DNA of 21,686 nt, taken from a virus. A program made the position numbers and the translations under genes. Shown here piece by piece: positions 4,910 through 19,636 of this stretch. Position 1 is the stretch's first letter. Every line of letters begins with the position of its first letter. Location: positions 1-21,686 of IMG/VR virus record IMGVR_UViG_3300034072_000882. One strand, given 5' to 3'. The notes below the pieces were generated by a model. The model was not told the DNA's origin and searched no databases. It worked only from the letters and a program-made list of their open reading frames with translations.

Positions 4910-5155
4910 ATGAGCGCTGATAAGACACCTTCCCGGCAGGAGATCATTGCCAACTTGCAGCGGGTAGCCCTTCGCATGCTAGGCGAGGTTGGTAATCCGT
5001 CCTTCATCTTGGACGAGCAGGGACGCAAAGTGGGCGAACAGCCTAGAGCTACTATTAACGACGTGGACAAGCTCACTCAGCTGATTCAAGATGTAGATCA
5101 GGGTGCGATTAAAACCAATAGCTCAACAGGTGGGCAGGCGTACAGTCGGTCCTGA
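4910..5155 (+). CDS. Unknown protein, 81 aa
   Basis: Begins MSADKTPSRQEIIANLQRVA three bases after the previous stop, with a GAGGAG SD eleven bases upstream. Mostly helical and charged, with no recognised domain. Its last ten or so codons (STGGQAYSRS) are encoded by the promoter-like motif at 5122-5147, so the C-terminus may simply be what that regulatory sequence happens to encode. Function unknown. Confidence 0.75.
   Translation: MSADKTPSRQEIIANLQRVALRMLGEVGNPSFILDEQGRKVGEQPRATINDVDKLTQLIQDVDQGAIKTNSSTGGQAYSRS
5122..5147 (+). promoter_or_regulatory. Phage motif promoter copy 1
   Basis: Contains CAACAGGTGGGCAGGCGTAC with the hexamer TACAGT at 5141-5146, 15 bases after the first A of ACAG as in all copies. 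Unlike the others it lies inside the end of a gene and faces a terminator only about 75 bp away, so its only product would be a short RNA. Identical over 26 bases to copy 2. Confidence 0.6.
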
Positions 5156-5225
5156 CACGATGCCACTTGTCATTTGCTAGTCTCCATAGACTCCTCACAG
5201 CCCGCCTTTGTGCGGGTTCTTTTTC
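5153..5225 (+). ncRNA. Predicted ~73-nt structured small RNA
   Basis: If promoter copy 1 starts transcription about 6-7 bases after TACAGT and stops at T1, the transcript is about 73 nt. It would hold three consecutive hairpins: TGACA/TGTCA (5153-5157 with 5168-5172), AGTCT/AGACT with a 4-nt loop (5179-5183 area with 5188-5192), and the terminator stem CCCGC/GCGGG. No reading frame of note exists inside. Promoter, structure and terminator together suggest a phage small RNA; no homologue recognised. Confidence 0.4.
5199..5224 (+). terminator. Rho-independent terminator T1
   Basis: GC-rich stem CCCGC (5201-5205) / GCGGG (5212-5216), extendable by A-T and G-T pairs, followed by TTCTTTTT. It ends the transcript from copy 1 and any read-through from the terminase operon. 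Promoter copy 2 begins five bases later. Confidence 0.85.
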
Positions 5226-5228
5226 GTC

Positions 5229-5254
5229 CTCAACAGGTGGGCAGGCGTACAGTC
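5229..5254 (+). promoter_or_regulatory. Phage motif promoter copy 2
   Basis: Same 26 bases as copy 1, with TACAGT at 5248-5253. A start near 5260 gives a leader of about 21 bases that contains the GGAGG ribosome site of the 121-residue gene at 5281. Lying immediately after terminator T1, it is well placed to begin a new transcription unit. Confidence 0.65.
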
Positions 5255-5280
5255 CGCAGGAAAATAACCTGGAGGCCGAC

Positions 5281-5646
5281 ATGCCTATCACACTCACACG
5301 TTCAAAAGTTTCCAGCGGAGACGGCTCAGTCGAGAGCATCCGTTACGCAACCATCACCGAGGCAGACACCGACCCTGCACCGATTGAGCTAACCGAGTTC
5401 GCAGATCGCTCAGTGCAGGTCGACGGCACGTTCAACGGCGGCACGCTGACAGTCGAAGGCTCCAACGACGGCCTGGTCTATTTACCGCTCACCGATCCGC
5501 AGGGTAACGCGTTGGCTTTCACCTCCGCAAAGATCGAGCAGGTACAAGAGATGACCCGATTCATCCGACCACGCGTGACAGCAGGCACAGGCGTCTCCCT
5601 GAACGTCACATTCCTGGTACGCCGGGCAAGCTCTCTGCGCACGTAA
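5281..5646 (+). CDS. Beta-rich phage structural protein (putative decoration or fibre-associated), 121 aa
   Basis: Start fixed by SD GGAGG eight bases upstream of the ATG. The sequence reads as a small beta-sandwich: 'FNGGTLTVEGSNDGLVYLPL', 'DPQGNALAFT', 'TRFIRPRVTAGTGVSLNVTF'. This is a pattern common in uncharacterised phage virion or head-surface proteins (perturbation of a mean value plus 'RFIRP' strand). No signal peptide or enzyme motif. It lies directly upstream of the SGNH protein in the same promoter-terminator cassette, so it could be a base or partner of that protein. Exact role not known. Confidence 0.7.
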   Translation: MPITLTRSKVSSGDGSVESIRYATITEADTDPAPIELTEFADRSVQVDGTFNGGTLTVEGSNDGLVYLPLTDPQGNALAFTSAKIEQVQEMTRFIRPRVTAGTGVSLNVTFLVRRASSLRT

Positions 5647-5670
5647 CCGAACAGCACTAAGGATTTCAAT

Positions 5671-7401
5671 ATGGCAAAAAATTACGTTAGTAACACAGAC
5701 GCCAATGTGGACGTCATTGTCGATTCGGCGACCCAGGCAGTTGTCGGGTTACGTAATCGGAAGACTGGCGATGAGTCGTATTTCCCAAGGGTCACAGCTA
5801 GCGGTGATCTGGTTGACCAAGATGGTGGCCTAATATATAGCGCAAACAATGGAAGTATTCCTAATTACACCCCTTTCTCAAGCCTTCGTCATGTGTCAGG
5901 TGACTCATGCTATCCAATAAGTAAACAGGGAGGTAGTCAACAGGCTATCTCGCGCCATTGGGTGCCTATTTACGCTGATATTGAAGCGGGGGACACAGTT
6001 CAGTTCAGCATTAAAAAGACAGGCGATTACCAAGAGTCATTTAACCTTAATGGGGCAACATGGCAAATCGGCATGGAGCATCCATTAACTAAAGGGACGC
6101 TGACGCCTTGTTATTGGGATACTGGCCTCTTAACTAAAACATTCGGCCCTGATAAAAATACAGAGTATCTAACATTTACTGCCCCACATGCAATCCGTAG
6201 AGGTTCTTTTATCTCATTCTGGATTTGGGCAAAGAATGGTTTTGGGATGAATATCTCAGGCGATATTGCTTACAGGAACCAAACGGGGGCTGCAAGCACA
6301 TTCAATGGCGATTTATTCCGAAGGGACTCAAACAGCACAAATTATAACAACAACACTCTCGCTCTATTCACAGAGGGTGGTATAACTGGCATGTCAGATG
6401 CCACACGTAATGCTCTTACAAACGACTTCACATCAACCTTCGCAAATACCGTTGATTATTACTGGCATATTGGTATTCACAGTGTACAGGCAGTAAGTAA
6501 TATCCCTGCTATTGCAAGCATTGGTGATTCTACAGATGCGCGAGGTGGCTCTCAATTCTCTATCAGCTCTGATAATAGTAAAACATATGGCGTGGCTGGA
6601 AAGGCCCTTGGTCGAAAATTCCCTGTTATGAATCTTTCTGGTGCTAATGGTCGATTTGCTTATTGGGTCGATAATCCGGCTAATAGTGCAATACGTGCAG
6701 AAGATTTGCAGTGGTGTACCCATGTGGCGTTTACATCAGGTATTAATGATTGCAATGATTTTGGTGCAAATGGGACTGGGTATGTAGCAAAAGCAATAGA
6801 GTTTATGAACTTGCCTATTTTCGAAGGTAAGGGGTGGATCGGGTTTACTATTGCTCCATTCTCCACAAGCACAACAGTTTCAAGTGACTTCATGACTACG
6901 CTTGCAAACAGCTTTACTTCTACACACGTGTCGCGTAATTATCATAACGATTTCATTATGAACTCTGGTAGATTTGATGCTGTATATGATATCAACACTA
7001 TTGTTGAATCACCTGTTCAGCTTGGTAAATACAGGATTCCGAGCAACGCAAGGACTGTAGTCGGAAGCATGTCGAGCGGAAGTAATTTGCTTACATTGGA
7101 TTCCGGGTATTACTTTAGGGCGTCAGACAATAGGCTGCGTGTTGGCAATAGCAATCTCGGTGGTACAGGAACTGCTAGAGTGGCTGAGATAGTTGTGACT
7201 GGCCCTCAAACAGCAACGTTGGTAGCGCGTACCGCTGGTGTAGCCATTACAAGTGAGAACTTTTACATTGGCGCATGTCAATTTAACCAAGCACCAAACG
7301 ACTACCTGCACAAATCTCCAGCACATTACGACGCTTACTACCAGTTCGATGTGAAAGGTGTGTTTGAAGAAGGATTTATTATTCAAAGAATTAGTGTTTG
7401 A
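5671..7401 (+). CDS. SGNH/GDSL-hydrolase virion protein (candidate surface-sugar esterase)
   Basis: 576 residues. SGNH catalytic blocks are visible: block I IGDST with Ser287, block III SGIND with Asn359, and block V NDYLH with Asp544 and His547. Phage SGNH proteins of this size are usually tail-fibre or tailspike enzymes that remove acyl groups from capsule or O-antigen. The N-terminal 60 residues may be a virion-attachment part, and residues about 80-270 a beta domain. Between blocks III and V lies an extra beta-rich segment (about 450-535). The gene is clearly AT-rich (23 of 60 bases G/C at 6781-6840, against 33 of 60 at 8401-8460 in the portal gene), suggesting recent acquisition. SD AAGGA lies nine bases upstream. 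Confidence 0.8.
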   Translation: MAKNYVSNTDANVDVIVDSATQAVVGLRNRKTGDESYFPRVTASGDLVDQDGGLIYSANNGSIPNYTPFSSLRHVSGDSCYPISKQGGSQQAISRHWVPIYADIEAGDTVQFSIKKTGDYQESFNLNGATWQIGMEHPLTKGTLTPCYWDTGLLTKTFGPDKNTEYLTFTAPHAIRRGSFISFWIWAKNGFGMNISGDIAYRNQTGAASTFNGDLFRRDSNSTNYNNNTLALFTEGGITGMSDATRNALTNDFTSTFANTVDYYWHIGIHSVQAVSNIPAIASIGDSTDARGGSQFSISSDNSKTYGVAGKALGRKFPVMNLSGANGRFAYWVDNPANSAIRAEDLQWCTHVAFTSGINDCNDFGANGTGYVAKAIEFMNLPIFEGKGWIGFTIAPFSTSTTVSSDFMTTLANSFTSTHVSRNYHNDFIMNSGRFDAVYDINTIVESPVQLGKYRIPSNARTVVGSMSSGSNLLTLDSGYYFRASDNRLRVGNSNLGGTGTARVAEIVVTGPQTATLVARTAGVAITSENFYIGACQFNQAPNDYLHKSPAHYDAYYQFDVKGVFEEGFIIQRISV

Positions 7402-7407
7402 CACCAC

Positions 7408-7433
7408 AACCCGCTTCGGCGGGTTTTCTTTTT
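7408..7433 (+). terminator. Rho-independent terminator T2
   Basis: Seven-bp stem AACCCGC/GCGGGTT capped by a very stable TTCG tetraloop, then TTTTCTTTTT. It begins seven bases after the SGNH stop codon and closes the cassette. Stem and T-tract resemble T1. Confidence 0.92.
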
Positions 7434-7442
7434 GCCAGACAG

Positions 7443-7468
7443 CTCAACAGGTGGGCAAGCGTATAACT
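7443..7468 (+). promoter_or_regulatory. Phage motif promoter copy 3 (portal)
   Basis: CTCAACAGGTGGGCAAGCGT followed by TATAAC (7462-7467), ten bases after terminator T2. A bacterial-type start 6-7 bases past the hexamer falls at 7473-7475, just before the portal ATG at 7476. Shares its first 15 bases, and the AG before them, with copy 1. Confidence 0.65.
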
Positions 7469-7475
7469 GCCCAGC

Positions 7476-9731
7476 ATGAGCGAATACGACATCGAAGACG
7501 ACACACAGGACGTCGAAGTGCTGGAGGCCGAGCCGCTATCTGAAGAGGAAGCCGCCGCTGCGCGTGAAGCTGTCCTGGCTAAACTCAATAGCCTTGGCCA
7601 GACATTAGCCAAGTACCGCGAAGAGGCGATCTCCGGCCGCCACTCATCAGGCATTGAGGCTGAGTGGCAAGACGACGAAGAGGCCTACGAAGGCATCGAC
7701 AACGCTAACCGTGAGATGGTCTCGGCCAAGCCTACATCTCCTGATGGCGGCACGACAGTGCGCAAAGACGCGCCAGCCCGGTCCACCGTATTCCTGAACA
7801 TTACCCGCCCTTACACCGATGCAGCTGCCGCCAAAGTGGCTGACATGCTGTTGCCTACCGACGACGCCAACTTCGACCTGATGCCCACGCCGATCCCCGA
7901 GATCGGCCTACTGAAAGACGACCAGACGCCGCTCATGTCGCCCAACGGCAATCCGCTCATGAAGCAGATTCCCGGCCAGCCTGTCCAGACACCGTTCACG
8001 GTTGCAGACAAGGTGGCCGCCGTACAGCAGAAGGCGCAAGACGCCGTAGACAAAGCAAAGACCCGTATTCGTGATTGGCACGTCGAGTGCAACTACCATG
8101 ACGAGTTCCGCATGGTGGTCGAGGACGCGGCCAAGGTGGGTAGCGGCATTTTGAAAGGGCCTTTCCCGATCAGCCTCAGATCCAAAGTGGTCACGAAAGA
8201 AGGCGGCATCACCCAGGTTATGCTGGAAGACAAGATCCAGCCAGCTTCTAAGCGCGTCGACTACTGGAACTTCTACCCAGACCCTGCCTGTGGGGACAAC
8301 ATCCACAACGGCAACTACGTCTGGGAGCGGGAAGAGATTTCAGGCAGAGCGCTGCGAGACCTGATCGAAGACCCGCTGTATATCCCTGAGGCCATCGTCG
8401 AAGTGCTGGATGAGGGCCCGGGCAAAAAGAAAATCAGAGACCGCAGCTACTCCAGCTTCCAAGCTGACAAAGACACATTCGAGATGTGGTACTACTACGG
8501 CTTCGTGACCGCTGAAGACCTGGAAGCTGCAGGCTGTGATTGCGGTGACATGGATGCTGCCTCTACCGTGCCAGCAATCGTGGTGATGGTCAACGATCGC
8601 GTGATCCGTGCAATGCTGTCACCTCAAGAGACCGGCGAGTTTCCGTTCGATGTGTTTGTCTGGCAGCGTCGCGTCGACAGCTGGACAGGCATTGGCGTGG
8701 CCCGGCAGATTCGCACACCGCAGCGCATGCTGAACAGCGCCACACGTAACATGATGGACAACGCTGGCTTGAGTTCTGGTCCGCAGATCGTGATGCGCAG
8801 AGGCTTGATTGAACCGGCTGATGGTGTATGGCAGATCACCCCTCGTAAGATTTGGTGGGCCACCGAAGAAGCCGAAGGGCGCCCCGTTCAAGACGCGGTC
8901 ACCAGTATCAACATTACCTCGCAGCAAGCCGAGCTGATGGGGATTATCCAGTTCGCTCTCAAGATGGCCGAAGACGTCACAGGCCTACCCATGCTGCTAC
9001 AAGGCCAGCAGGGCAAAGCACCAGACACCGTTGGCGGTATGCAGATCATGATGGGCAACGCCTCGTCTGTGCTGCGCCGTTTGGCCCGTAACGCTGATTC
9101 CATGTTGATCAAGCCGCACATTCGCCGCTACTACGATTGGCTGCTGGCGGATCCTGAAGTGCCAGAAGACGAGAAGGGCGACGCAAGCGTATTTGCAAAA
9201 GGCGCCAGTTCTTTGGTCGAGCGAGAGCTTAACAACCAGATGCTGGCGCAGGCTCTGCAGCTGTCACTCAATCCGGCGTTCGGCCTCAGCCCAGAGCGCT
9301 CACTGAAAGAGTACCTCACGGCCCAGCGCGTCAATGTCTCCAAGATCGAACTTACCGATCAGGAGAAACAGACTAATCGACAGGCCGCCCAGAATGGTCC
9401 ACAGGACCCTCGCGTCATCGCTGCACAGGCCGCTATCAAAACAGCGGAGATTCGCGCCCAGGCCGACGTGCAGAAGGCAGAAGCGGGCCAGGCCATCTCT
9501 CAACAAGAGCTCCAGCTCCGCCAGGCAGACGCTGCGCAGGAGCGCGAGTTCCGCATGCAGGAGCTGCAACTGCAGCGAGAGATCGAAATGTTGCGTATGG
9601 CAAACGACCAGAAAGTTTCCCTGGAATCTATCAAGGCCAAGCTGGCAGACACCGCCATGAAAGAGCGCAACAAGCGCGATATGTTCAACACCGAGATCGC
9701 TATCAAGCAGAGTCAAGGGTCGGGCATTTAA
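7476..9731 (+). CDS. Portal (head-tail connector) protein
   Basis: 751 residues, in the size range of podovirus portals. It forms the dodecameric ring at the capsid vertex through which TerL pumps DNA. Typical features are an acidic N-terminus, 'FLNITRPYTDAAAAKVADML' near residue 110, the 'YWNFYPDPAC' segment near 265, 'VFVWQRRVDSWTGIGVARQI' near 395, and a long charged helical C-terminus (about 640-740, AEIRAQADVQKAEAG...), probably the barrel or a coiled coil. The ATG has no Shine-Dalgarno sequence; with the predicted promoter immediately upstream this mRNA may be (nearly) leaderless. Next genes: small protein, scaffold, capsid. Confidence 0.88.
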   Translation: MSEYDIEDDTQDVEVLEAEPLSEEEAAAAREAVLAKLNSLGQTLAKYREEAISGRHSSGIEAEWQDDEEAYEGIDNANREMVSAKPTSPDGGTTVRKDAPARSTVFLNITRPYTDAAAAKVADMLLPTDDANFDLMPTPIPEIGLLKDDQTPLMSPNGNPLMKQIPGQPVQTPFTVADKVAAVQQKAQDAVDKAKTRIRDWHVECNYHDEFRMVVEDAAKVGSGILKGPFPISLRSKVVTKEGGITQVMLEDKIQPASKRVDYWNFYPDPACGDNIHNGNYVWEREEISGRALRDLIEDPLYIPEAIVEVLDEGPGKKKIRDRSYSSFQADKDTFEMWYYYGFVTAEDLEAAGCDCGDMDAASTVPAIVVMVNDRVIRAMLSPQETGEFPFDVFVWQRRVDSWTGIGVARQIRTPQRMLNSATRNMMDNAGLSSGPQIVMRRGLIEPADGVWQITPRKIWWATEEAEGRPVQDAVTSINITSQQAELMGIIQFALKMAEDVTGLPMLLQGQQGKAPDTVGGMQIMMGNASSVLRRLARNADSMLIKPHIRRYYDWLLADPEVPEDEKGDASVFAKGASSLVERELNNQMLAQALQLSLNPAFGLSPERSLKEYLTAQRVNVSKIELTDQEKQTNRQAAQNGPQDPRVIAAQAAIKTAEIRAQADVQKAEAGQAISQQELQLRQADAAQEREFRMQELQLQREIEMLRMANDQKVSLESIKAKLADTAMKERNKRDMFNTEIAIKQSQGSGI

Positions 9732-9751
9732 CAGATGGGCGAGCGTACGAT
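9730..9751 (+). promoter_or_regulatory. Phage motif promoter copy 4 (scaffold-capsid)
   Basis: AACAGATGGGCGAGCG then TACGAT (9746-9751), overlapping the portal stop codon on one side and the next ATG (9750) on the other. A start near 9758 would fall inside the small gene, so this copy would serve the scaffold and capsid genes, while the small gene is read from upstream. Confidence 0.55.
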
Positions 9752-9974
9752 GAGCACACTGAACAAGCTTTCACAGCCTGAGAAGGAATCAGAGCTGTGG
9801 AAAAAACTGGAAAAGATTTTAACTGAAAGGCTGGAGAAGCACCGGCGTCTGAATGACACGGATCAGCCTGAAAGCAAGACGGCCTTATTGCGGGGCCGTA
9901 TTGCGGAAGTAAAGTTTCTGCTTGCTCTGGCAAAAGAGCCAGACCCGGCAATACCCTCGGATGCTGACGAATAG
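9750..9974 (+). CDS. Small helical protein between portal and scaffold, 74 aa
   Basis: MSTLNKLSQPEKESELWKKL... is a charged, almost wholly helical protein with coiled-coil character (ELWKKLEKILTERLEKHRRL). Two starts are possible: ATG 9735, three bases after the portal stop, or ATG 9750 used here. I prefer 9750 because ATG 9735 is part of the recurring promoter motif (ACAGATGGG), which is present elsewhere without acting as a start. Neither has a good SD, so re-initiation after portal translation is likely. Position suggests a head-assembly accessory. Family not recognised. Confidence 0.7.
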   Translation: MSTLNKLSQPEKESELWKKLEKILTERLEKHRRLNDTDQPESKTALLRGRIAEVKFLLALAKEPDPAIPSDADE

Positions 9975-10005
9975 TCACCCTCTGACAACTTAGGAGCACA
10001 ACGCA

Positions 10006-10866
10006 ATGGCGATTGAAGATGAAGTATTGAACGAGCAACAACAGCAACAAGCTGAAGACGACGAAAGCGCAGGTTTTAACGCTAGCTTTGGGATCGAGCC
10101 ACCCGCCGAAGAGGCCGCTGGCGAAGATCAAGACTTAGCTAACGCAGACACCAGTGCCGCGGTTGACGACGTCGAAGCTGCACCGGCTGCCGAAGAGGGC
10201 CACGACCCAGCAGTCAACGCTGGTGAGGACACAGGAGAAGTCGATGAAGAGGCAGAGCGCGAGCGCTTAGCCACGCTGTTAGGTGAGTTGCCCTCTCTGC
10301 AAGAGCGCAGTCAGATGACTGAGCAGCAGATCAGGCAGCTTAACGGGAAGATCGGCGAGATCAACCGCATCGTTAAGGGTTTGCAAGACCGACCTGCGGC
10401 GACTGTCACCAAAGAATCGTTCAAACGGACTCTGGCTGAGTTTCCAGAAATCGCCGAGACCTTAGCTGAAGATTTGGCAGGGCTGTCAATTGGCAGCCAG
10501 TCAGTGGACGTAGACCCTATCGTGCAAGAGCGCGTACAGGCTGCGACCCAGAAGATAGAGCGGTCCATGGAGTTGAAGCTCCTGGGCATGGTTCACAAGG
10601 ATTGGAAACAGGTAACTGCTTCTGACGGCTTTAAAAAGTGGGTCACCACTTTGCCAGAGGATCAGCAGACCGAATTGGCCAACTCTTGGGATTCGAGCTA
10701 TATCGCAGACAAACTGACAGAGTACAAAGAGTTCAGCAAGGCGCAGCAGCAACAAGCAACAACACGGAATCAGCGGTTAGCTGGCGCCCTTCTGCCCAAA
10801 ACACGCACCGTGCCTAGGCGCACACTGGCAACAGAAGAAGACGGATTTAACGCTGCTTTCCGATAG
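10006..10866 (+). CDS. Scaffolding protein
   Basis: 286 residues, very acidic and Gln/Glu/Ala-rich over the first 90 residues, then helical with coiled coil (MTEQQIRQLNGKIGEINRIV near 105-125), and a basic C-terminal end (KTRTVPRRTL). This profile and the place between portal and major capsid protein identify the internal scaffold that templates procapsid assembly and is then lost. The basic C-terminus is the usual capsid-binding part. A near-identical hexapeptide occurs at both ends: GFNASF (23-28) and GFNAAF (280-285). SD TAGGAG lies ten bases before the ATG. Confidence 0.85.
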   Translation: MAIEDEVLNEQQQQQAEDDESAGFNASFGIEPPAEEAAGEDQDLANADTSAAVDDVEAAPAAEEGHDPAVNAGEDTGEVDEEAERERLATLLGELPSLQERSQMTEQQIRQLNGKIGEINRIVKGLQDRPAATVTKESFKRTLAEFPEIAETLAEDLAGLSIGSQSVDVDPIVQERVQAATQKIERSMELKLLGMVHKDWKQVTASDGFKKWVTTLPEDQQTELANSWDSSYIADKLTEYKEFSKAQQQQATTRNQRLAGALLPKTRTVPRRTLATEEDGFNAAFR

Positions 10867-10897
10867 ATATTAACCCTTTATTGGAAAGAGGAACATT

Positions 10898-11941
10898 ATG
10901 GCTATTCAGAATTTATCGACACAAAGCGCACGTATTGGGAAGCTGAAAGGCGACATCCTGAAAGGTGCGATCCCTGTAGAAGTGCTGGGCATTACCGGCA
11001 TGAACAAACCTATGCCGAAGAACGGCTCTCCAGTGATGATCTTCCGTCGCTGGTTGCCACCAGGCGGCGTGGATAACCGCTGGATCACTACCGGCACTAT
11101 GCAGACCTACGCGTCTAACCGTCAGACTGTGGAAGGCCAAACACCGACTGCAGCGACTATGACTGCGGTTGACATCACTGTGACCTTGAAACAGTACGCT
11201 GTGCTGTATGCGATCACGGATCAGACTGTCGACCTGTACGAAGACGACGTGGCCACTGAGATGAAAACTCAGACCGGCCAGACCATGGGCCTGATCCGTG
11301 AGATGGTTCGCTACGGTGAGCTGCGCGGCGCGACAAACGTGTTCTACGCAGGCGGCTCCAGCCGCGCGACAGTGAATCAATCCTTGAGCCTGAACCTGTT
11401 GCGTAAGGTCACTCGCGGTCTGTTGAACAACCACGCACAGCGCATCACCAAAGTGCTGTCCAGTTCCGGTAACTACGGCACACAGGCTGTTGAAGCTGGC
11501 TTCCTGGTGTTCTGCTCCACAGACATGGAAGCTGCGATCCGTGACTTGCCAGGCTTTAAAAACGTAGTCGACTACGGTAACAAGCAGCCTATCAACGAGA
11601 ACGAGATCGGTGCAGTTGAGCGCTACCGCTTCATTCTGTCTCCTGAGCTGGTTGGCTACGCTAACGCCGGTGCGGCTGTCGGTGCGACAGGCCTGTTCTC
11701 TACTGGCGGCACCAACATCGACGTGTACCCAATCATCGTTTGCGGTGAAGACGCTTGGGGCCAAGTAGCTCTGCGCGGTGCCAGTGCGATGGATGTGACC
11801 TGGATTCAACCAGGCACCAAGGATAAGTCAGACCCTCTGGGCCAACGCGGCTACATCGGCGCCAAAGCCTATCACGCTGCAGTGATCTTGAACCAAGGCT
11901 TCATGGCCCTGGTTGAAGCTGGCGCACCTGACTTGGCTTAA
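10898..11941 (+). CDS. Major capsid protein, N4-gp56 family
   Basis: 347 residues, HK97-fold coat protein of the N4-gp56 family. Diagnostic parts are 'QYAVLYAITDQTVDLYEDDV' near residue 100, 'IDVYPIIVCGEDAWGQVALR' near 270-290, and the C-terminal 'PLGQRGYIGAKAYHAAVILN'. It builds the icosahedral shell. SD GAAAGAGG lies eight bases upstream. Codon choice looks biased toward preferred codons, as expected for the most abundant virion protein. No visible proteolytic delta domain, consistent with a separate scaffold gene. Confidence 0.93.
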   Translation: MAIQNLSTQSARIGKLKGDILKGAIPVEVLGITGMNKPMPKNGSPVMIFRRWLPPGGVDNRWITTGTMQTYASNRQTVEGQTPTAATMTAVDITVTLKQYAVLYAITDQTVDLYEDDVATEMKTQTGQTMGLIREMVRYGELRGATNVFYAGGSSRATVNQSLSLNLLRKVTRGLLNNHAQRITKVLSSSGNYGTQAVEAGFLVFCSTDMEAAIRDLPGFKNVVDYGNKQPINENEIGAVERYRFILSPELVGYANAGAAVGATGLFSTGGTNIDVYPIIVCGEDAWGQVALRGASAMDVTWIQPGTKDKSDPLGQRGYIGAKAYHAAVILNQGFMALVEAGAPDLA

Positions 11942-11947
11942 TCAATC

Positions 11948-11965
11948 GAGGGGCTACGGCCCCTC
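11948..11965 (+). other. Stable intercistronic hairpin after the capsid gene
   Basis: Stem GAGGGGC/GCCCCTC with a TACG tetraloop (an extra-stable cUACGg cap), starting six bases after the capsid stop codon. It lacks a U-tract, so it is more likely to protect the capsid mRNA 3' end or to give partial termination than to be a full terminator. Confidence 0.65.
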
Positions 11966-11984
11966 ACTGAACTAGGAGATTAAT

Positions 11985-12206: not shown

Positions 12207-12231
12207 CCGAATTTACGAATAGGAGCACATC

Positions 12232-12591: not shown

Positions 12592-12608
12592 CAGAGTTGT
12601 TGGGGGAG

Positions 12609-12644
12609 AAGCGGGGAGCTTTCGGGTTCCCCGCTTTTTTTTTT
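12609..12644 (+). terminator. Rho-independent terminator T3
   Basis: Strong 9-bp stem AAGCGGGGA/TCCCCGCTT, 10-nt loop, and a run of ten T's. It ends the scaffold-capsid-decoration transcript. Promoter copy 5 begins nine bases further on. Confidence 0.95.
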
Positions 12645-12653
12645 ACGTCAGGC

Positions 12654-12675
12654 AACAGATGGGTGTTGATATAAA
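12654..12675 (+). promoter_or_regulatory. Phage motif promoter copy 5 (connector/tail)
   Basis: AACAGATGGGTGTTGA then TATAAA (12670-12675), the best -10-like hexamer of the set. A start near 12682 gives a 28-base leader with the TAGGAG ribosome site of the next gene. The ATG inside the motif (12659) is in frame with that gene but has no SD and is better read as motif sequence. Confidence 0.65.
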
Positions 12676-12709
12676 TAGGAACCCTCAACAAGAAAATAGG
12701 AGACCTATT

Positions 12710-13294
12710 TTGGCCACACCACGTAAACCAGCGGCAAAGCCCGCAGCTAAACCAGCGGCAAAGCCCGCGAGTGCAGTTACAACCGGCGCCGGTCAGGTGT
12801 TCACCCGGGAGCATGCAAAAGCCACCGAGGCCCAGCAGCTGATCACGGAAGACGACGGCGTCGTCACAGCTTCTGCAGGCGTTCTGGAGATCGACGCTCC
12901 GGACATTGAGATCGAGAGCAATCTGTATGACGCGTCTGAACGCGCAGCTGAATTGGCGTTTATGGAAGACCTCTTGACGATCGAGATCTCAGAAGGCCAG
13001 GACCAGAACAATCCCGAGCCCTATGTATTCCTGGCAGTCAACGGCGTTGGCGCAGGACCGGGCGGCGAGCCTTATGTCCCCCGTGGTCAGCCGGTGACTA
13101 TCAAGCGTAAATACGTTGAAGTGTTGTGCCGTGCGCGACCAGCCTCATACGACTCTGTCGAGAAGGTCAACGCCGTCGGCGAGCGCTACATCGAATACCC
13201 AAAGAAGACATCTCTCAAGTACCCATTCACTGTTCTCGAAGACAAGAACCCTCGCGGCAGTGCTTGGTTGCGGAAAGTGCTGGCTGAGCGCTAA
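12710..13294 (+). CDS. Structural protein with Ala-Lys-Pro-rich N-terminus, 194 aa
   Basis: I place the start at TTG 12710 because TAGGAG lies seven bases upstream and translation then begins MATPRKPAAKPAAKPAAKPA; an in-frame ATG at 12659 has no SD and belongs to the promoter motif. The first 20 residues are a basic AAKP-repeat tail, able to bind nucleic acid or stay disordered. The rest is acidic then basic, with 'EPYVFLAVNGVGAGPGGEPY' and 'GQPVTIKRKYVEVLCRARPA', resembling uncharacterised proteins of phage head-completion regions. The stop overlaps the next start (TAATG). A structural or assembly role is inferred from position. Confidence 0.72.
   Translation: MATPRKPAAKPAAKPAAKPASAVTTGAGQVFTREHAKATEAQQLITEDDGVVTASAGVLEIDAPDIEIESNLYDASERAAELAFMEDLLTIEISEGQDQNNPEPYVFLAVNGVGAGPGGEPYVPRGQPVTIKRKYVEVLCRARPASYDSVEKVNAVGERYIEYPKKTSLKYPFTVLEDKNPRGSAWLRKVLAER
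12724..12768 (+). repeat. 24-bp tandem repeat encoding AAKP units
   Basis: TAAACCAGCGGCAAAGCCCG recurs with identical bases at 12724 and 12748, a period of 24 bp (eight codons, two PAAK units). It probably expands and contracts by slippage and changes the length of the basic tail. Confidence 0.85.
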
Positions 13295-13974
13295 TGACTT
13301 TCCTTGAACTCGTACAGTGGGTAAGCCAGGAGGCGCAGATACCAGGCAACGGACCGTCCGCAGTGACAGGTCAGCAGGGCGAGAGCCGCAACCTGGTGAA
13401 CTGGGTAAAGGCTGCCTGGAATGAAATCGAGACGCGTCATCAGACTTGGTTCTGGCGGCGTAAGCAGTTTTCGTTTCCTACAGTGGCCGACAAAGTAGCG
13501 TACACAGTTGCAGACATCGGACTGACAGCTGACTTCTCAGCCTGGGCGCCGTCGAGTTTTCGAATCAAGACAACAGCCTTGCCGGGTAATGACGCGCTGC
13601 CGCTCCCCCCTTGGACTTACGAGGACTGGGAGCGCTACTACCTAATCGCCAGCCAGGCTCCAGGGCGCCCTGTGGTCTATTCACAGCGTCCGAACGACCA
13701 AGCTATTGTGCTCGGGCCTACTCCGTTTAGCGATCAGTTCACCGTGGCCGGATGGTATTACACCATACCGCAGCCGCTGGTTAACGCGACAGACGTCCCT
13801 CGTATGCCTGCAGAGTTCCACACGCTTATCGGCTACCTCGCCTTGAAGAAGTACGCGCGAGCAGAGGCTGCCGGAGAGATTTACGAAGACGCATCGAAAA
13901 TGGTCACATCCATGATGCGCCGATTGGAAAACCACCAGCTGCCAGCAATTGGTTTGCCGGATTCACTAGCGTAA
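13294..13974 (+). CDS. Head-tail adaptor / tubular tail protein A-like, 226 aa
   Basis: MTFLELVQWVSQEAQIPGNG... with 'SRNLVNWVKAAWNEIETRHQ' and 'WFWRRKQFSFPTVADKVAYT' is the pattern of podovirus connector proteins that bind below the portal (T7 gp11-like or phage adaptor type). 'RMPAEFHTLIGYLALKKYAR' near the C-terminus also fits that family. It overlaps the preceding gene by one base (TAATG), so coupled translation is likely. It precedes the large tail protein, as expected for a proximal tail component. Family-level assignment by pattern only. Confidence 0.72.
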   Translation: MTFLELVQWVSQEAQIPGNGPSAVTGQQGESRNLVNWVKAAWNEIETRHQTWFWRRKQFSFPTVADKVAYTVADIGLTADFSAWAPSSFRIKTTALPGNDALPLPPWTYEDWERYYLIASQAPGRPVVYSQRPNDQAIVLGPTPFSDQFTVAGWYYTIPQPLVNATDVPRMPAEFHTLIGYLALKKYARAEAAGEIYEDASKMVTSMMRRLENHQLPAIGLPDSLA

Positions 13975-13983
13975 GGAGATCTT

Positions 13984-14835
13984 GTGGGGCAAAAAGCTAA
14001 ATACCGTCGGGAGATGGATAAGGCCATTGCTCAGTATGGCCAGGAGCTTCGTAAGCTTACGCCCTTAGAGTCTTCGGGGACAATCAAGACTAACGCGTAC
14101 CGGACCGCCACCGAAGTGGCTGATAATCAGTTGTCCGGAGCAGATCGGAGAGCGCTGAAGCAATCTGATCGACTGGCCAGAACCATCAATCGCGACGACG
14201 TTTTTAAAGAGCGCATGGCCAAGTACAACGACAGGTTGAGCATTTTGCAAGCTCAGTTGGCGGGGAAATCTGTAAACAGGTTTTATGTCTCGGACACACC
14301 TTCAATCCCAGAATCTTCAGGGTCTTCTGGCCTGCTAGGGTTTTCGCCCCCGCCAGCCTCGACGTCTTCAATGGCCACTGTTGGCGCTGGGGTATCCTTG
14401 CCAGACACTTCGTACCGACAAGACCGTGAGTATTTCACTTCTCGCGAGGACGCTTTGGCCGCAGCGCAAGCTCAGGCGGATGCGTACAACGCAAAACAGG
14501 CGTCTTTGCCTAGGCAACCTCTCGCACAAGTCCCCCGTAAAGCGACTGCGCAAGACTTCATAGCCTCCCAAAGTTTTGGTGCTGCCCCGGATGTCCAAGG
14601 AGGCGATCGTAGCATTCGATTTAGCCGATTGGACGCCGCAGCTAAAGATATGCAGACTTTGGCTGATGGGATCAAAGGCACTGACGCCGAGGCCGCTGCA
14701 ACTCAATACTCAGCGCTTGCAGAGAGGCTTAACGCCAAATTGGGCAAGATCAGTGCTACGCCTGTCGAGGCTCAATCGACAGGGCTGATAGGGTCTGAAC
14801 TTGCCAACGAGCTGGACACCGGAGTGCTGAAATAA
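13984..14835 (+). CDS. Unknown structural protein, 283 aa (GTG start)
   Basis: GTG start with a clear AAGGAG site five bases upstream. The N-terminal 100 residues are charged and helical (YRREMDKAIAQYGQELRKLT). A Ser/Pro-rich linker (PSIPESSGSSGLLGFSPPPA) follows, and then Ala/Gln-rich helices (EDALAAAQAQADAYNAKQAS). No enzyme or membrane motif. Flanked by two tail/connector genes and overlapping the next start by one base, it is probably a virion or assembly protein. Family not recognised. Confidence 0.72.
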   Translation: MGQKAKYRREMDKAIAQYGQELRKLTPLESSGTIKTNAYRTATEVADNQLSGADRRALKQSDRLARTINRDDVFKERMAKYNDRLSILQAQLAGKSVNRFYVSDTPSIPESSGSSGLLGFSPPPASTSSMATVGAGVSLPDTSYRQDREYFTSREDALAAAQAQADAYNAKQASLPRQPLAQVPRKATAQDFIASQSFGAAPDVQGGDRSIRFSRLDAAAKDMQTLADGIKGTDAEAAATQYSALAERLNAKLGKISATPVEAQSTGLIGSELANELDTGVLK

Positions 14836-16874
14836 TGCAGATGCCAGCCACCCGTTTTGACTACTTTCCGCTGACCGGCGGCCTCAACCTGGTTAGCCCA
14901 CCGCTGTCACTGAAACCTGGCACCGCAATCGACGCCCTTAACTTTGAAGTCGGCATAGACGGGGGGTACACACGCGTCGCCGGGTATGAGCGCTACAGCG
15001 GGCAGTTTGCTCCCAGTGATGCGCAATTTGTCGGTATCCCTGTTACGTTATCAGACTCGGTTGAAGTTGGGGATGAACTCGAAGGCGATAGCTCTGGTTT
15101 GACAGGCATAGTCATCAAGGTGTCCGAGGCCATCATCTTTGTGACCAAAGCGACGGCGGGGTTTACTGTAGGAGAGACTTTGCTGGTAGGAGCCTCTCCT
15201 GTAGGAGAGGTTGCTTCAGCTGCGTTGCTGAATGGCGGCGCCATGACACCGGCAGAGAACGCCGAACTTTTTGCCTTGGCTGCTGACGTCTATCGGGCAG
15301 ATATCGGGCAGGTCCCCGGCTCAGGGCCGGTTCGCGGCGCATACCATTACATGGGCACTTCTTACGCGTTTCGCGATGCGTCTGATGGCCTGACTGCAAA
15401 AATGTACAAGACGTCGTCTTCCGGCTGGCAGGAAGTCAGTCTGGGCTACGAAGTCAATTTCTCAAACGCGAACACTTCTGTAGGAGACGGCGACACGTTA
15501 ACTCAGGGCGGCGTAACTGCACTGATCAAGCGCGTGGTGGTGGAGTCAGGCACCTTGGCTTCTGGGACGAATACCGGCAAGCTGATCTTGGGCACGCCGT
15601 CGGGGGCGTTTAGCGCAGGCGCTGCATCCTCAACAGGCGGCGGGTCCCTTACCCTGGATGCAGACGCAGTGGCGATTACGATTCCGCCAGGAGGCAGCTA
15701 CGAGTTTGCTACATACAATTTCACAGGTTCAGGCCAGACCAAGCGCATGTACGGGACCAACGGTGTGGGGCGGATGTTTGAGTTCGACGGTGAGGTCTTC
15801 GTACCGATTAAGACCGGTCTGCCTGTCGACACTCCAGAGCATCTGGCTACTCACGCCAACTACCTGTGGGCCAGTTACAAGAGTAGCGTCCTCTATTCAG
15901 GCATTGGGGCTCCCTACAATTTCACGGCGGTTGGCGGCGCCGCAGAGATAGCTGTCGGTGATTTCGTCACAGGGTTCTTACCTGTGGTCGGAGGCGACGG
16001 CGCTCAAGCCTTGGCTATCTTCGCCAACAACCGGACACACATCGTGTACGGCGCTTCAGGTCCAGAGTTCAACGTGGCTATGTTGAGTGGTGAGGCTGGC
16101 GGTAGATCGCGCACCATGCGCACTATCGGTGACTCCTTTGTCTACGATTCCTTAGGAGTTAGAAGGCTGTCGACCACTTTGAACTTCGGTAACTTCACCC
16201 AGGCGCAAGTCACCAACCCGGTCAGGCCTTTTGTTTTGGCCAGACGAGCTCAAGCAGTAGGCGCTTGCGTATCCCGACACAAAGATCAGTACCGTATTTT
16301 CTTCTCTGACGGTTACGCCCTACACATATCGCTTAACAACCAGAAGGTGTCCGGCAACATGCCGATCAAGCTGGCCCACGTCATGAACTGCGTCGAGTCT
16401 GTCGAGACCGACACAGGTGATGAGTTCATCCTCGGCGGAGGGACAGATGGGTATGTGTATCGTTTTGAGAAAGGCACCAGCTTTGATGGGCAAGCAATTT
16501 CAGCTTTCCTGAATTTAGCCTTTGCCTATCAAGGTGGCCCACGTATCAAGAAGAAATTCCGCAAAGCGGTATACGAATTTAGCGGCCTGGGATATGCAGA
16601 ACTTGAGACCTCGTACAGCTTGGCCTATGCCTCTGACGAGATAGCCAATCCGATCGCTGAGATTATAGAGTCACCGTCGCGACCAGTGTTTTGGGATAGC
16701 TTTATTTGGGACAGATTCTTCTGGGATGGCCGCAGCTTGGCGCCAATGATACAGAAACTGGATGGCTCTGCTGAAAACATCTCTTTAATTTTGAGATGCA
16801 CGAGCGCTGAGTACCCTAGCTTCACGATTCACAGCGCGATTATTCACTACACACCAAGACGAGCTTTGAGGTAA
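14835..16874 (+). CDS. Large tail tubular protein B-like
   Basis: 679 residues. The N-terminus (FDYFPLTGGLNLVSPPLSLK ... ALNFEVGIDGGYTRVAGYER) is a pattern I associate with the nozzle/tubular tail proteins of several podovirus groups. It is followed by beta-rich repeats, a propeller-like region with 'KRMYGTNGVGRMFEFDGEVF', and a C-terminal part 'FRKAVYEFSGLGYAELETSY'. Two related beta segments (about residues 70-135 and 215-280) share the spacing VGDxL ... GxT ... GxLxLG, suggesting an internal duplication. It should form the distal tail tube where DNA exits. Overlaps the upstream gene by one base. Confidence 0.72.
   Translation: MQMPATRFDYFPLTGGLNLVSPPLSLKPGTAIDALNFEVGIDGGYTRVAGYERYSGQFAPSDAQFVGIPVTLSDSVEVGDELEGDSSGLTGIVIKVSEAIIFVTKATAGFTVGETLLVGASPVGEVASAALLNGGAMTPAENAELFALAADVYRADIGQVPGSGPVRGAYHYMGTSYAFRDASDGLTAKMYKTSSSGWQEVSLGYEVNFSNANTSVGDGDTLTQGGVTALIKRVVVESGTLASGTNTGKLILGTPSGAFSAGAASSTGGGSLTLDADAVAITIPPGGSYEFATYNFTGSGQTKRMYGTNGVGRMFEFDGEVFVPIKTGLPVDTPEHLATHANYLWASYKSSVLYSGIGAPYNFTAVGGAAEIAVGDFVTGFLPVVGGDGAQALAIFANNRTHIVYGASGPEFNVAMLSGEAGGRSRTMRTIGDSFVYDSLGVRRLSTTLNFGNFTQAQVTNPVRPFVLARRAQAVGACVSRHKDQYRIFFSDGYALHISLNNQKVSGNMPIKLAHVMNCVESVETDTGDEFILGGGTDGYVYRFEKGTSFDGQAISAFLNLAFAYQGGPRIKKKFRKAVYEFSGLGYAELETSYSLAYASDEIANPIAEIIESPSRPVFWDSFIWDRFFWDGRSLAPMIQKLDGSAENISLILRCTSAEYPSFTIHSAIIHYTPRRALR
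16443..16463 (+). promoter_or_regulatory. Candidate internal copy of the phage promoter motif
   Basis: ACAGATGGG then TATCGT at 16458-16463, with exactly the 15-base offset of the six intergenic copies, but inside the tail gene (codons for TDGYVYRF). It could be an internal promoter for the fibre and lysis genes, or chance reinforced by the protein sequence. Confidence 0.3.
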
Positions 16875-16876
16875 CA

Positions 16877-18064
16877 ATGGCTAATAAATACTACGACCCT
16901 TCAGGATACCCGCAAACGGGCGCTCCCGGATCGTCCGCAGCGATGCGGTCTGAGTTAGCGACCATAGCCACTGGGTTTGAAGGAGTCGAACAAGATATCG
17001 ACGACGCCTTGACTGGCGCTTCGGGCGCAGTGACCGCAGCCACCGCTCAAGCTGGTATTGCCACCACGCAAGCGGGCATATCAACTACTCAAGCTGGTAT
17101 TGCCACCACGCAAGCGGGCATATCAACTACTCAAGCTGGTATTGCCACCACGCAAGCGGGTATTGCAGCCGATAAAGCGGCAGAAGCTGCAGCTGCCAAG
17201 CTTGCAGTCGACGCAACCTACGACGAGTTCGACGATCGCTACTTGGGCCGTAAAGCGTCAGACCCGACGGTCGACAACGACGGCAACGCTTTGCAGAAAG
17301 GTACGCTGTATTTCAACACGACCACCGATACCTTTAAAGGGTACAACGGTACTGCCTGGATCAACCTTCCGGCTACGACAGCGGCTAGTCTGACGTTCTC
17401 GCCTGCCGGTAGTGTGTCAGCCACCGATGTTCAAGCCGCGATTGAAGAGCTTGACACCGAAAAGCTGTCCGCAGGGGCCGGAGCTGTCGGCACGGCCAAT
17501 CTGGCTGCCGAAGCAGTTACGGGCGATAAGCTGGAGACTATCATTTCTTCAGGATCTGTCGGCTCCGCGTCGGGGATCCCTGTCATTACTTACGATACTA
17601 AAGGTCGAATTACAAGTGTCGGCCTGGCTAGTATCACCATTCCTTCTAAGACGAATGAGTCGGGGGCTGTAGTCGGGACTAACGACACTGATTTCATGAC
17701 GCCTCTCACTACTCGACAGGCATACCCTATACGTACATTAATGACAGCTTGGAGTGCTGCATATACTCCCGTAGGTGGTGAAACATTGTCTGCGGCACAT
17801 GGGCAATCGGTAGTGCCATATGCAGTGCAATTGGTTCTTGAATGCGTTTCTGCAGACCTTGGATATTCACCAGGTGAAAGAGTAACTCCTCACGGTTTTT
17901 GGAACGGTAGCGCCACCAATGCGATTTCATACTATGCGGATGCTACAAACGTAGGTGTGAAGTGTCCAACAGGTTTTATTGTTTACATTCAAAGCAAAAC
18001 AACGGGATCAGGCACCACTCCTGCGGCTGGGAAGTGGAAATACGCTTTCGAGTTCAAGGTGTAA
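16877..18064 (+). CDS. Tail fibre protein
   Basis: 395 residues. The N-terminus (MANKYYDPSGYPQTGAPGSS...RSELATIATGFEGVEQDID) is a pattern of podovirus fibre-attachment regions. Residues 58-95 are heptad-like QAGIATT/QAGISTT repeats forming a trimeric stalk. A middle part (GTLYFNTTTDTFKGYNGTAW) is common in phage fibres and may serve as a joint. The C-terminal 110 residues (from about 17730) are the likely receptor-binding tip. The tip region is AT-richer (22 of 60 bases G/C at 17941-18000), consistent with swapping of tip domains. SD GAGG lies seven bases upstream. Confidence 0.83.
   Translation: MANKYYDPSGYPQTGAPGSSAAMRSELATIATGFEGVEQDIDDALTGASGAVTAATAQAGIATTQAGISTTQAGIATTQAGISTTQAGIATTQAGIAADKAAEAAAAKLAVDATYDEFDDRYLGRKASDPTVDNDGNALQKGTLYFNTTTDTFKGYNGTAWINLPATTAASLTFSPAGSVSATDVQAAIEELDTEKLSAGAGAVGTANLAAEAVTGDKLETIISSGSVGSASGIPVITYDTKGRITSVGLASITIPSKTNESGAVVGTNDTDFMTPLTTRQAYPIRTLMTAWSAAYTPVGGETLSAAHGQSVVPYAVQLVLECVSADLGYSPGERVTPHGFWNGSATNAISYYADATNVGVKCPTGFIVYIQSKTTGSGTTPAAGKWKYAFEFKV
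17048..17160 (+). repeat. 42-bp tandem repeats in the fibre stalk
   Basis: Two exact 42-bp copies (17048-17089, 17090-17131) and a 29-base partial third (17132-17160). Each encodes 14 residues, two heptads (QAGIATT QAGISTT). Exact DNA identity suggests recent slippage or recombination, which would alter stalk length in steps of two heptads. Confidence 0.92.
17968..17989 (+). promoter_or_regulatory. Weak candidate motif copy near the fibre 3' end
   Basis: AACAGGT followed at the usual 15-base offset by TACATT (17984-17989), but the GGG of the core is TTT. It would read toward the fibre partner and lysis genes. Degenerate and in coding sequence, hence low confidence. Confidence 0.15.
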
Positions 18065-18067
18065 GCC

Positions 18068-18346
18068 ATGCAAGACATGCAAGCCGTTACCAACGCCATC
18101 AGGGATAAGAAAGAGGCTCTGGATTCAATCACTGTCACCACGCAATCTGGAAAAACCTTTGACGGTAATGAAACCGCGCGTGGCGACATGATGGCGGCAC
18201 TTGCTGCCGGTGATCTGCTTGGAGAGACAGAGACCAACTGGAAACTGGCTGATAACTCAAAAGCGCTGGTGACTAGGGATGAACTGCGCGAAGCGCTAGC
18301 TCTAGCCATACAAGCCAAAGGCCGAATAGTCGGCGCAATTACATAA
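18068..18346 (+). CDS. Tail-fibre partner, DUF4376-like, 92 aa
   Basis: Three bases after the fibre stop. The sequence 'MQDMQAVTNAIRDKKEALDS ... GKTFDGNETARGDMMAALAA ... NWKLADNSKALVTRDELREA' follows the DUF4376 pattern (V..G..FD.d..s...i..a; W...d...v..T..el), normally found at the C-terminus of tail-fibre assembly proteins. Here the domain stands alone. A role as fibre chaperone or attached subunit is inferred from the domain and the position behind the fibre. Confidence 0.65.
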   Translation: MQDMQAVTNAIRDKKEALDSITVTTQSGKTFDGNETARGDMMAALAAGDLLGETETNWKLADNSKALVTRDELREALALAIQAKGRIVGAIT

Positions 18347-18354
18347 GGAAAAAT

Positions 18355-18609
18355 ATGACACTCGGTAACCAGCATCAAACACTTGCAGAAGCAGTCTCCG
18401 ATAAAGCGACCCTTGGTGGCGCTGCTACAGGTGTAATCGGCTGGCTGGCATCAATAAATTGGATAGGCTTACTTGGTGTAGTCATCGCTGCTATCGGTCT
18501 TATGGCTAACGTATATTTTCAGCATAGGCGCGACGAGCGCGAGCAGCTTGAAACCGCAGCCAGAATTGAAGCGCTAAGAGCTGGCAAAGGAAGGCTTTGG
18601 GATGAATAA
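18355..18609 (+). CDS. Holin, 84 aa
   Basis: Small membrane protein with a hydrophobic stretch at residues 18-55 (GGAATGVIGWLASINWIGLL then VVIAAIGLMANVYF), long enough for two tight or one long membrane helix, and a highly charged C-terminal tail (QHRRDEREQLETAARIEALR). Size, topology and place just before the endolysin identify it as the holin that permeabilises the inner membrane and times lysis. With a SAR-endolysin it may act as a pinholin by collapsing membrane potential. SD AAGGA lies seven bases upstream; its stop overlaps the endolysin start. Confidence 0.82.
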   Translation: MTLGNQHQTLAEAVSDKATLGGAATGVIGWLASINWIGLLGVVIAAIGLMANVYFQHRRDEREQLETAARIEALRAGKGRLWDE

Positions 18610-19111
18610 GTTTCGGGTATCGGTCGCCGCACTGGCGCTTTCTTTCGCTGGTTTCGTCGGTATCGCTACGCAAGAAGGCTACGTGGAGCGAGCCACTGTG
18701 CCTACAAAGAACGACAGGCCGACTAACGGATTTGGAAGTACCTTTAACGCAGACGGGTCGCCTGTCAAACTTGGCGATGTCACAACACCGGTTCGGGCTT
18801 TGATCACCGCCCAAGCTCACATCTCAAAAGAAGAACAGAAATTCCGTGACAGCTTGCCAGGCGTGAAGCTGTACCAGGGTGAATACGACCTCTATATGGA
18901 CTTCACATACCAATTTGGTATCGGCACTTGGCGAGCGTCAAGTATGCGGCGCAATCTTTTAGCAGGGGACTACGTGGCCGCTTGCAATGCGCTTTTGCTT
19001 TACAGGTTCTCAGGCGGATTCGATTGCTCCTCACCAGGCAACAGGCGCTGTGCAGGAGTCTGGACCAGGCAACAGGAAAGGAACCGGAAATGCTTGTCAA
19101 TGCAAAACTGA
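18602..19111 (+). CDS. SAR-endolysin, GH24 lysozyme-type muramidase
   Basis: 169 residues. The N-terminus (KFRVSVAALALSFAGFVGIA) is weakly hydrophobic and rich in Ala/Gly/Ser, as in signal-arrest-release domains that tether and then free the enzyme into the periplasm. It leads directly into EGYVERATVP...PTNGFGST, the GH24 active-site region, with catalytic Glu25 and Thr41. The canonical Asp nine residues after the Glu is a Pro here. 'GEYDLYMDFTYQFGIGTWRAS' and the closing 'GVWTRQQERNRKCL' fit the family. The enzyme cleaves peptidoglycan after holin action. The start overlaps the holin by eight bases, and the end overlaps Rz by 22 bases. Confidence 0.87.
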   Translation: MNKFRVSVAALALSFAGFVGIATQEGYVERATVPTKNDRPTNGFGSTFNADGSPVKLGDVTTPVRALITAQAHISKEEQKFRDSLPGVKLYQGEYDLYMDFTYQFGIGTWRASSMRRNLLAGDYVAACNALLLYRFSGGFDCSSPGNRRCAGVWTRQQERNRKCLSMQN

Positions 19112-19608
19112 TCTACGCCCTGTTGATTGCGCTGGCCTTGGCGCTGGTCGGTGCCAGCGTCCAATCCTACCGCCTAGCGCTTGAACAAAAGGACCACACC
19201 AAAACCGTAGCCAAGAATGAAAAGGAGTGGGCGAAGCTGTACGCCAGTTCGGCCACCGCGGCGCAAGAGTTGCTGGCGCGCTATCAATCCCAGACTGAAT
19301 CCCTACAGAAAGAGGCCGAGAATGCAAAGAAACAACGCGACAAAGCAAAGTCTGATGCTGCTATTAATGCTGATGTTGGTAACAAGCTGCGCGCAAAACT
19401 CGCAGCGGCCAGAGCTAACTATTGCGCAAAAGCAGAAGATACCTCCACTGACAACGGAAGCCAGGCAGCCGGACCCGCCATCAATCTGTTCGACTACGTG
19501 CAGCGAAGGCTTGATGAAGCTACGGATACAGTTGCTGAATTTGCTGACCGATCCCACATCGCAGGCTCCGCTTGCGAAAGATCATACGACACAGTGACTA
19601 GCCCGTGA
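19090..19608 (+). CDS. Rz: i-spanin (Rz-like)
   Basis: 172 residues from ATG 19090, preceded by AGGAAAGGA. One N-terminal membrane anchor (LIYALLIALALALVGASVQS), then a long charged periplasmic coiled coil (residues about 30-120, EKEWAKLYASSATAAQELLA...), the layout of Rz. It joins the outer-membrane lipoprotein Rz1, encoded within it, to fuse or disrupt the outer membrane at the last step of lysis. Its presence implies a Gram-negative host. Confidence 0.88.
   Translation: MLVNAKLIYALLIALALALVGASVQSYRLALEQKDHTKTVAKNEKEWAKLYASSATAAQELLARYQSQTESLQKEAENAKKQRDKAKSDAAINADVGNKLRAKLAAARANYCAKAEDTSTDNGSQAAGPAINLFDYVQRRLDEATDTVAEFADRSHIAGSACERSYDTVTSP
19322..19597 (+). CDS. Rz1: o-spanin lipoprotein (Rz1-like), embedded in Rz
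   Basis: 91-residue frame wholly inside Rz, shifted by one base. MQRNNATKQSLMLLLMLMLV then TSC: basic start, hydrophobic h-region and a lipobox VTSC with lipidated Cys23. The mature part carries proline pairs (KIPPLTTE, PDPPS) typical of Rz1. Embedded Rz/Rz1 pairs are a classical lysis arrangement. Mature length of about 69 residues is ordinary to slightly long. Confidence 0.85.
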   Translation: MQRNNATKQSLMLLLMLMLVTSCAQNSQRPELTIAQKQKIPPLTTEARQPDPPSICSTTCSEGLMKLRIQLLNLLTDPTSQAPLAKDHTTQ

Positions 19609-19614
19609 GGGTCA

Positions 19615-19636
19615 CACAGATGGGCGTTGGTATCCT
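19615..19636 (+). promoter_or_regulatory. Phage motif promoter copy 6 (ejection proteins)
   Basis: CACAGATGGGCGTTGG then TATCCT (19631-19636) in the gap after Rz. A start near 19643 gives a 21-base leader carrying the GGAGG site of the next gene. Almost the same first 15 bases as copy 5. Confidence 0.6.

Follow-up and report, generated by a model that had tools for sequence, protein, structure and literature searches.

A recurrent one-strand motif forms putative activator-dependent late promoters in a clade of uncultured tailed phages

We analyzed a 21.7 kb virus record (IMG/VR IMGVR_UViG_3300034072_000882), here called the window, meaning the whole stretch of 21,686 nucleotides. It is a fragment of a tailed-phage genome, and no terminal repeats were found in it. 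Genes on the minus strand occupy its first 1.1 kb; the virion region lies on the plus strand and comprises terS, terL, the portal gene and the major capsid protein gene, then tail, lysis, and more virion genes. The terL product is ~60% identical to that of temperate Burkholderia and Pseudomonas phages of the F116/BcepIL02 kind. The portal protein is 43% identical to that of an uncultured phage, and the major capsid protein, which is of the N4-gp56 type, shows 60% identity to that of the same phage. Within this region recurs a short box, ACAGRTGGGY, which an initial annotation had read as a phage-specific promoter family of six copies that divides the late genes into modules.

Searching for the box alone returned seven exact copies, at 5126, 5233, 7447, 9731, 12655, 16443, and 19616. 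The six coordinates given earlier were all exact, and the count was one short, as the copy at 16443 lies inside a tail gene (14835-16874). All seven copies are on the forward strand, with none on the reverse strand and none in a backward-read control. TAY stands at offset 15 from the first A in 7/7 copies, though the search term did not include it. The spacing proposed earlier was thus exact, while the proposed TANNNT hexamer fits five of the seven copies, the others reading TATAAC (7447) and TATAAA (12655). A scan of box plus TAY that tolerated up to three mismatches gave seven perfect sites, none with a single or double mismatch, and three-mismatch sites at the level of chance. Across 300 dinucleotide shuffles, the mean count of the box alone was 0.18 (maximum 3), and box plus TAY never occurred.

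Each putative promoter copy was an exact match on the plus strand. Copy 1 (5126-5146, ACAGGTGGGC-aggcg-TACAGT) lies within the 3' end of an open reading frame (ORF) at 4910-5155. An intrinsic terminator on the same strand (5199-5225) separates it from copy 2 (5233-5253, ACAGGTGGGC-aggcg-TACAGT), which would leave a leader of ~21 bases before the ATG at 5281. A second plus-strand terminator (7408-7434) precedes copy 3 (7447-7467, ACAGGTGGGC-aagcg-TATAAC), which is directly ahead of the portal ATG at 7476. The sequence around copies 1-3 forms longer, nearly identical repeats on either side of a low-GC cargo gene. Copy 4 (9731-9751, ACAGATGGGC-gagcg-TACGAT) spans the portal stop codon and sits 5' of a 79-amino-acid gene, a scaffold-like gene, and the capsid gene; this junction is shared with five relatives (L008, L010, L011, L016, and G027). 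A third plus-strand terminator (12611-12644), recognized by terminator analysis and by reading of the sequence, precedes copy 5 (12655-12675, ACAGATGGGT-gttga-TATAAA), whose junction is shared with L009, G027, G030, and L044. Copy 6 (16443-16463, ACAGATGGGT-atgtg-TATCGT) is the one within the tail gene. Copy 7 (19616-19636, ACAGATGGGC-gttgg-TATCCT), with a leader of ~21 bases to the ATG at 19664, is retained in the near relative L240. Terminators before three copies had been noted at 5-10 bp; we place three copies (5233, 7447, and 12655) 7-12 bases behind the T run. The earlier description of 21-28-base leaders containing a Shine-Dalgarno sequence at 5233, 12655, and 19616 was right on our reading of the sequence.

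We gathered relatives by capsid-protein searches of viral contigs and genomes, which yielded over 100 loci. L008-L012 and L016 also carry the motif, and slightly altered forms of it are present in L030, L043, L044, L051/G027, L052, G030, and others. It occupies shared gene junctions, namely near the portal start, across the portal stop, and after small genes behind the capsid gene; further shared positions are inside the tail gene, before a lysis gene and, in G030, before a gene of 3280 amino acids. The strict motif occurred 28 times forward and never in reverse in 186 kb of the clade, and on neither strand in 882 kb of non-clade relatives, which were taken as returned by the capsid searches together with reference phages. 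This carrier/non-carrier division follows the motif itself, and the capsid tree serves as an independent check: motif carriers all fall on one side of a branch with 97/99 support, and the only row on that side without the carrier label is L008, a 4.5 kb fragment with one site. On these sequence comparisons, the motif is confined to one capsid-protein clade of uncultured phages, with up to seven copies each. One relative, G030, is a complete prophage with an integrase at one end and the repeat TCTCTCCTTTCGCACCAAA at both ends; all six of its copies map to the late half, within 22.8-42.1 kb.

Viral contigs were also scanned twice using just the motif. Many of the hits were single and due to chance; the records with several sites that carried the family's capsid or late genes were members of the same clade, adding L148, L161, and L164. 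Other motif pairs, as in L176, look like chance. A 20-base form of the motif had no match in viral contigs, and the portal protein as a single query gained no new relative. The strict motif was not found in F116, JC1, 8P, Y11, Y7, Rollin, Y3, or MW202426. A de novo motif search in other relatives returned mostly coding bias or terminators; its reverse-complement column was uninformative because the method is symmetric.

Alignment of 42 sites gave the consensus ACARRTGGR-N7-TATNNT. The middle seven bases differ between subclades, while the right half keeps the conservation pattern of a sigma70 -10 element, with T, A, and the last T strong, and so reads as a host -10 element. No -35 element was conserved across these sites, as the initial annotation had observed for the window. 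When boxes were scanned with no demand on the right half, 88 forward and 6 reverse sites were found; TA stood at offset 15 in 49 of the 88 forward boxes, compared with 1-16 boxes at any of the other offsets. Of those 49 boxes, 37 have T as the last base of the hexamer. Sites counted in different relatives do not represent independent events. An intrinsic terminator lay within 70 bases upstream of 17 of 36 non-coding sites, versus 0.85% of random late positions, and its T run often ended 0-14 bases ahead of the box. With a terminator just upstream, a transcript starting downstream is the simplest use of such sites.

The copy inside the tail gene encodes TDGYVYR. Many relatives lacking the motif keep the peptide xDG[YF]VY and spell it with other codons. 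At this position, the six distinct motif carriers share the codons ACA, TAT, and CGT but vary at codon positions not fixed by the motif (GGG/GGA, TAT/TTT/TAC, and GTG/GTA), and the motif codons are retained in every clade member holding this place. In L030, the aspartate of the peptide has changed to glycine with the box intact. Given codon usage, the chance of the motif spelling was 1.6-8% per phage; multiplying these chances gives 7e-9, an overstatement in view of the relatedness of the phages. Such retention by codon choice would call for a function at that exact place.

We then looked at which protein might act on the box. A predicted winged-helix protein is encoded on the plus strand at 1540-1839, directly upstream of terS; its start codon is uncertain, and the open frame runs from 1429. 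In five lineages (the window, G009, G030/G029, G027, and L043), the gene either adjoins terS on its upstream side or is separated from it by one small gene; no other clade member has sequence extending over this place. A profile search found the protein in no other relative, and it had no match in GenBank phages; its association with the motif is known from this clade alone. In Pfam and PHROGs, it had no match to a known late activator and gave only weak unrelated hits. AlphaFold predicted a winged-helix core with a predicted local distance difference test score of about 90, and Foldseek placed it near ArsR/MarR regulators (best E 2.8e-3), a match that informs on fold class only. Between the divergent early genes and the genes for a 63-amino-acid protein and the winged-helix protein, at 1285-1353, are operator-like inverted repeats (TACACCTG/CAGGTGTA, also given as TACACCTATCTACACCTG and TTCACCTGCAGGTGTAA; no strand assigned). 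This region is probably repressor-controlled, as expected for a winged-helix gene held off in the prophage. Together, these features make the winged-helix protein the likeliest activator of the putative late promoters, an assignment we regard as plausible rather than probable. A 226-amino-acid protein encoded before terS in G030 was set aside as a regulator because other carriers do not share it.

We consider it likely that host RNA polymerase uses the copies as late promoters, together with a phage activator that replaces the -35 contact. Host polymerase retargeted by a phage activator was the first option named by the initial annotation, and the computational evidence supports it: the fixed bipartite spacing, the -10 signature, the single orientation, the terminator-adjacent late location, the conservation within the clade, and a clade-restricted DNA-binding protein. 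We infer that RNA starts at these sites, that an activator binds the box, and that this activator is the winged-helix protein. Each copy would then be a late promoter: TATNNT would be recognized as the -10 element by host polymerase carrying its main sigma factor, and a phage activator, bound at constant spacing to the asymmetric box ACARRTGGR (about -27 to -18), would replace the -35 contact. Expression of the activator from an immunity-controlled early operon would keep the late genes silent in the prophage. Terminators ahead of several copies would insulate transcription units, and the late region would consist of several separately started modules rather than one long operon. Some observations weigh against this interpretation. 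The box position, -27 to -18, is not where activators usually bind. The copy at 7447 would yield a nearly leaderless portal mRNA, and a start from the copy at 9731 would fall inside the 79-amino-acid ORF, so that copy must serve genes further on; the portal-junction copies as a group must involve either leaderless mRNA or service to later genes. In addition, the link between the winged-helix protein and the motif comes from five related lineages and may reflect shared descent alone.

Several other functions could be imagined for the element. It might load an antitermination factor of the Q/AlpA type, with the box as the Q-binding element, TATNNT as the sigma-dependent pause element of a promoter further upstream, and the winged-helix protein as the Q analogue. 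Q and AlpA do bind between -35 and -10 and require a -10-like pause element (PMC9371919, PMC6606751), and the candidate gene sits at the lambda Q position. Nothing promoter-like is conserved upstream of the box, however, and T runs that end 0-14 bases before many boxes leave no room for an upstream promoter. Moreover, there would be no point in five to seven sites per late region if antitermination were processive, and the predicted winged-helix fold gives no sign of a Q-like ring segment. We consider this explanation improbable. The initial annotation had also left room for a phage sigma factor or phage RNA polymerase, and an asymmetric motif of ~20 bases repeated on one strand does recall T7-like phages. 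A search for single-subunit RNA polymerase (PF00940) found none in the complete prophage G030, with T7 positive in the same search, and sigma regions 2 and 4 (PF04542, PF04545) were absent from the window, G030, G031, G029, and G027, with controls positive. These two branches were therefore not supported. The middle seven bases also vary by subclade while TATNNT stays sigma70-like. A protein too divergent for the models is conceivable, and overall we rate promoters of this kind as less probable still.

The element could alternatively act at the RNA level, or as a recombination linker between exchangeable modules, with no promoter function. Every copy is on the sense strand, and the near-identical repeats around the low-GC cargo gene are what module exchange would be expected to leave. 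Copies right behind strong terminators would hardly be transcribed, however, and the -10 signature and the codon-kept copy in the tail gene demand a function at an exact place; use as a linker could coexist on top of promoter function. An exclusively RNA-level or linker role thus seems very unlikely. The least likely of the four is a set of repressor sites like the stoperators of mycobacteriophage L5, which would halt prophage transcription. Those sites share the asymmetry, the intergenic placement, and the orientation along transcription (PMC9283540), but the fixed -10-like half, the position next to terminators, and the absence of copies from the early region of G030 fit them poorly. On sequence grounds, we also rejected CsrA sites, which have a GGA core, and sigma54 promoters, which are recognized by their GG/GC spacing.

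Further features of the arrangement were observed. A tandem pair of copies with a terminator between them is found both in the window (107 bases apart, 5126-5253) and in L148 (123 bases apart, 1695-1838), and is kept although the upstream genes differ. Since the terminator lies between them, RNA from the first copy would end after only ~70-100 bases. The segment 5229-7468 of the window has near-identical copies at both ends and contains an AT-rich gene at 5671-7401 (G+C 0.42 at 6-7 kb versus ~0.53 around it); it looks like a recently acquired module with promoter copies as borders. Elsewhere in the window, a tail-fibre-like gene (16877-18064) contains tandem 21-base repeats at 17046-17171, encoding a repeated TTQAGI-type peptide. 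In G030 (reverse complement, 20864-22481) and L161 (290-1818), terL consists of two open frames of ~250 amino acids each, broken at the same place, whereas in L044 it is a single frame.

A different element, CCCCGGCTAGGGTTCG, is repeated on one strand in Comamonadaceae prophages that have a related capsid gene. It often follows a terminator and stands ~35-40 bases ahead of the next start codon, and GGGAACACTGCGGGG frequently comes immediately in front of the ATG. The CCCCGGCTAGGGTTCG element occurs in L105 (4509, 8745, and 19909), L106 (8742 and 16761), L107 (4429), L113 (4355, 8790, 13428, and 15221), and L114 (4295, 18041, and 19690), and may be the module-start signal of this sister group. 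No PF00940 polymerase was found in three host genomes of these prophages. A broader reading is possible, and we offer it tentatively: an undescribed family of phage winged-helix activators, each acting on a single asymmetric box in the -35/-10 spacer and taking over the -35 contact of host sigma70 polymerase, would drive separately promoted, terminator-insulated late modules, and sister clades with the same capsid would use unrelated module-start elements, late-control systems having been swapped around shared virion genes. The motif and the candidate activator appear to be undescribed; we did not find the motif in the literature searched, which leaves out most subscription journals.

Several known systems resemble the one proposed here in part. 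Among temperate phages of the lambda kind, the best known rely on a single late promoter combined with antitermination. The RinA-type late activators of staphylococcal phages are small DNA-binding proteins encoded just upstream of terS. The winged-helix candidate has the same size class and gene position as RinA; it differs in matching no known late activator in Pfam or PHROGs and in having several putative promoters through the late region. Unlike T7-type promoters, the clade sites are not accompanied by a single-subunit polymerase gene in the complete relative. The binding sites of lambda Q, 21Q, and AlpA are comparably placed, in the -35/-10 spacer beside a -10-like hexamer, but these proteins require a promoter upstream of the pause element (PMC9371919, PMC6606751); the clade has no such promoter and has many sites per genome, including sites behind terminators. 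L5 stoperators share the asymmetry, intergenic location, and orientation of the clade sites (PMC9283540), but they are spread genome-wide, including at early promoters, whereas all six G030 sites are in the late half and the clade sites are coupled to a -10-like hexamer and terminators. The closest parallel is the T4 middle promoter, where a phage box stands in for the -35 element and host sigma70 reads the -10 element (PMC7403470). Like MotA/AsiA promoters, the clade sites have TATNNT at a fixed offset and no conserved -35. The MotA box lies at about -30, and the clade box, whose sequence differs from the generally known MotA box, lies ~8 bases nearer the -10 element. The clade sites would also serve late genes of temperate phages, and no AsiA partner was identified in the clade, where no dedicated MotA/AsiA model was run on the relatives' proteins. 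As both sequence and position differ, we do not file these sites as members of the MotA family. The general principle is already known from T4 MotA, and the clade appears to express its late genes from as many as seven promoters with a common activator box in an unusual position. Should the winged-helix protein prove to be the activator, the two would form a compact activator-promoter pair and a test of how a spacer-bound protein can replace sigma region 4, and the shared box and the named candidate make the proposal directly testable.

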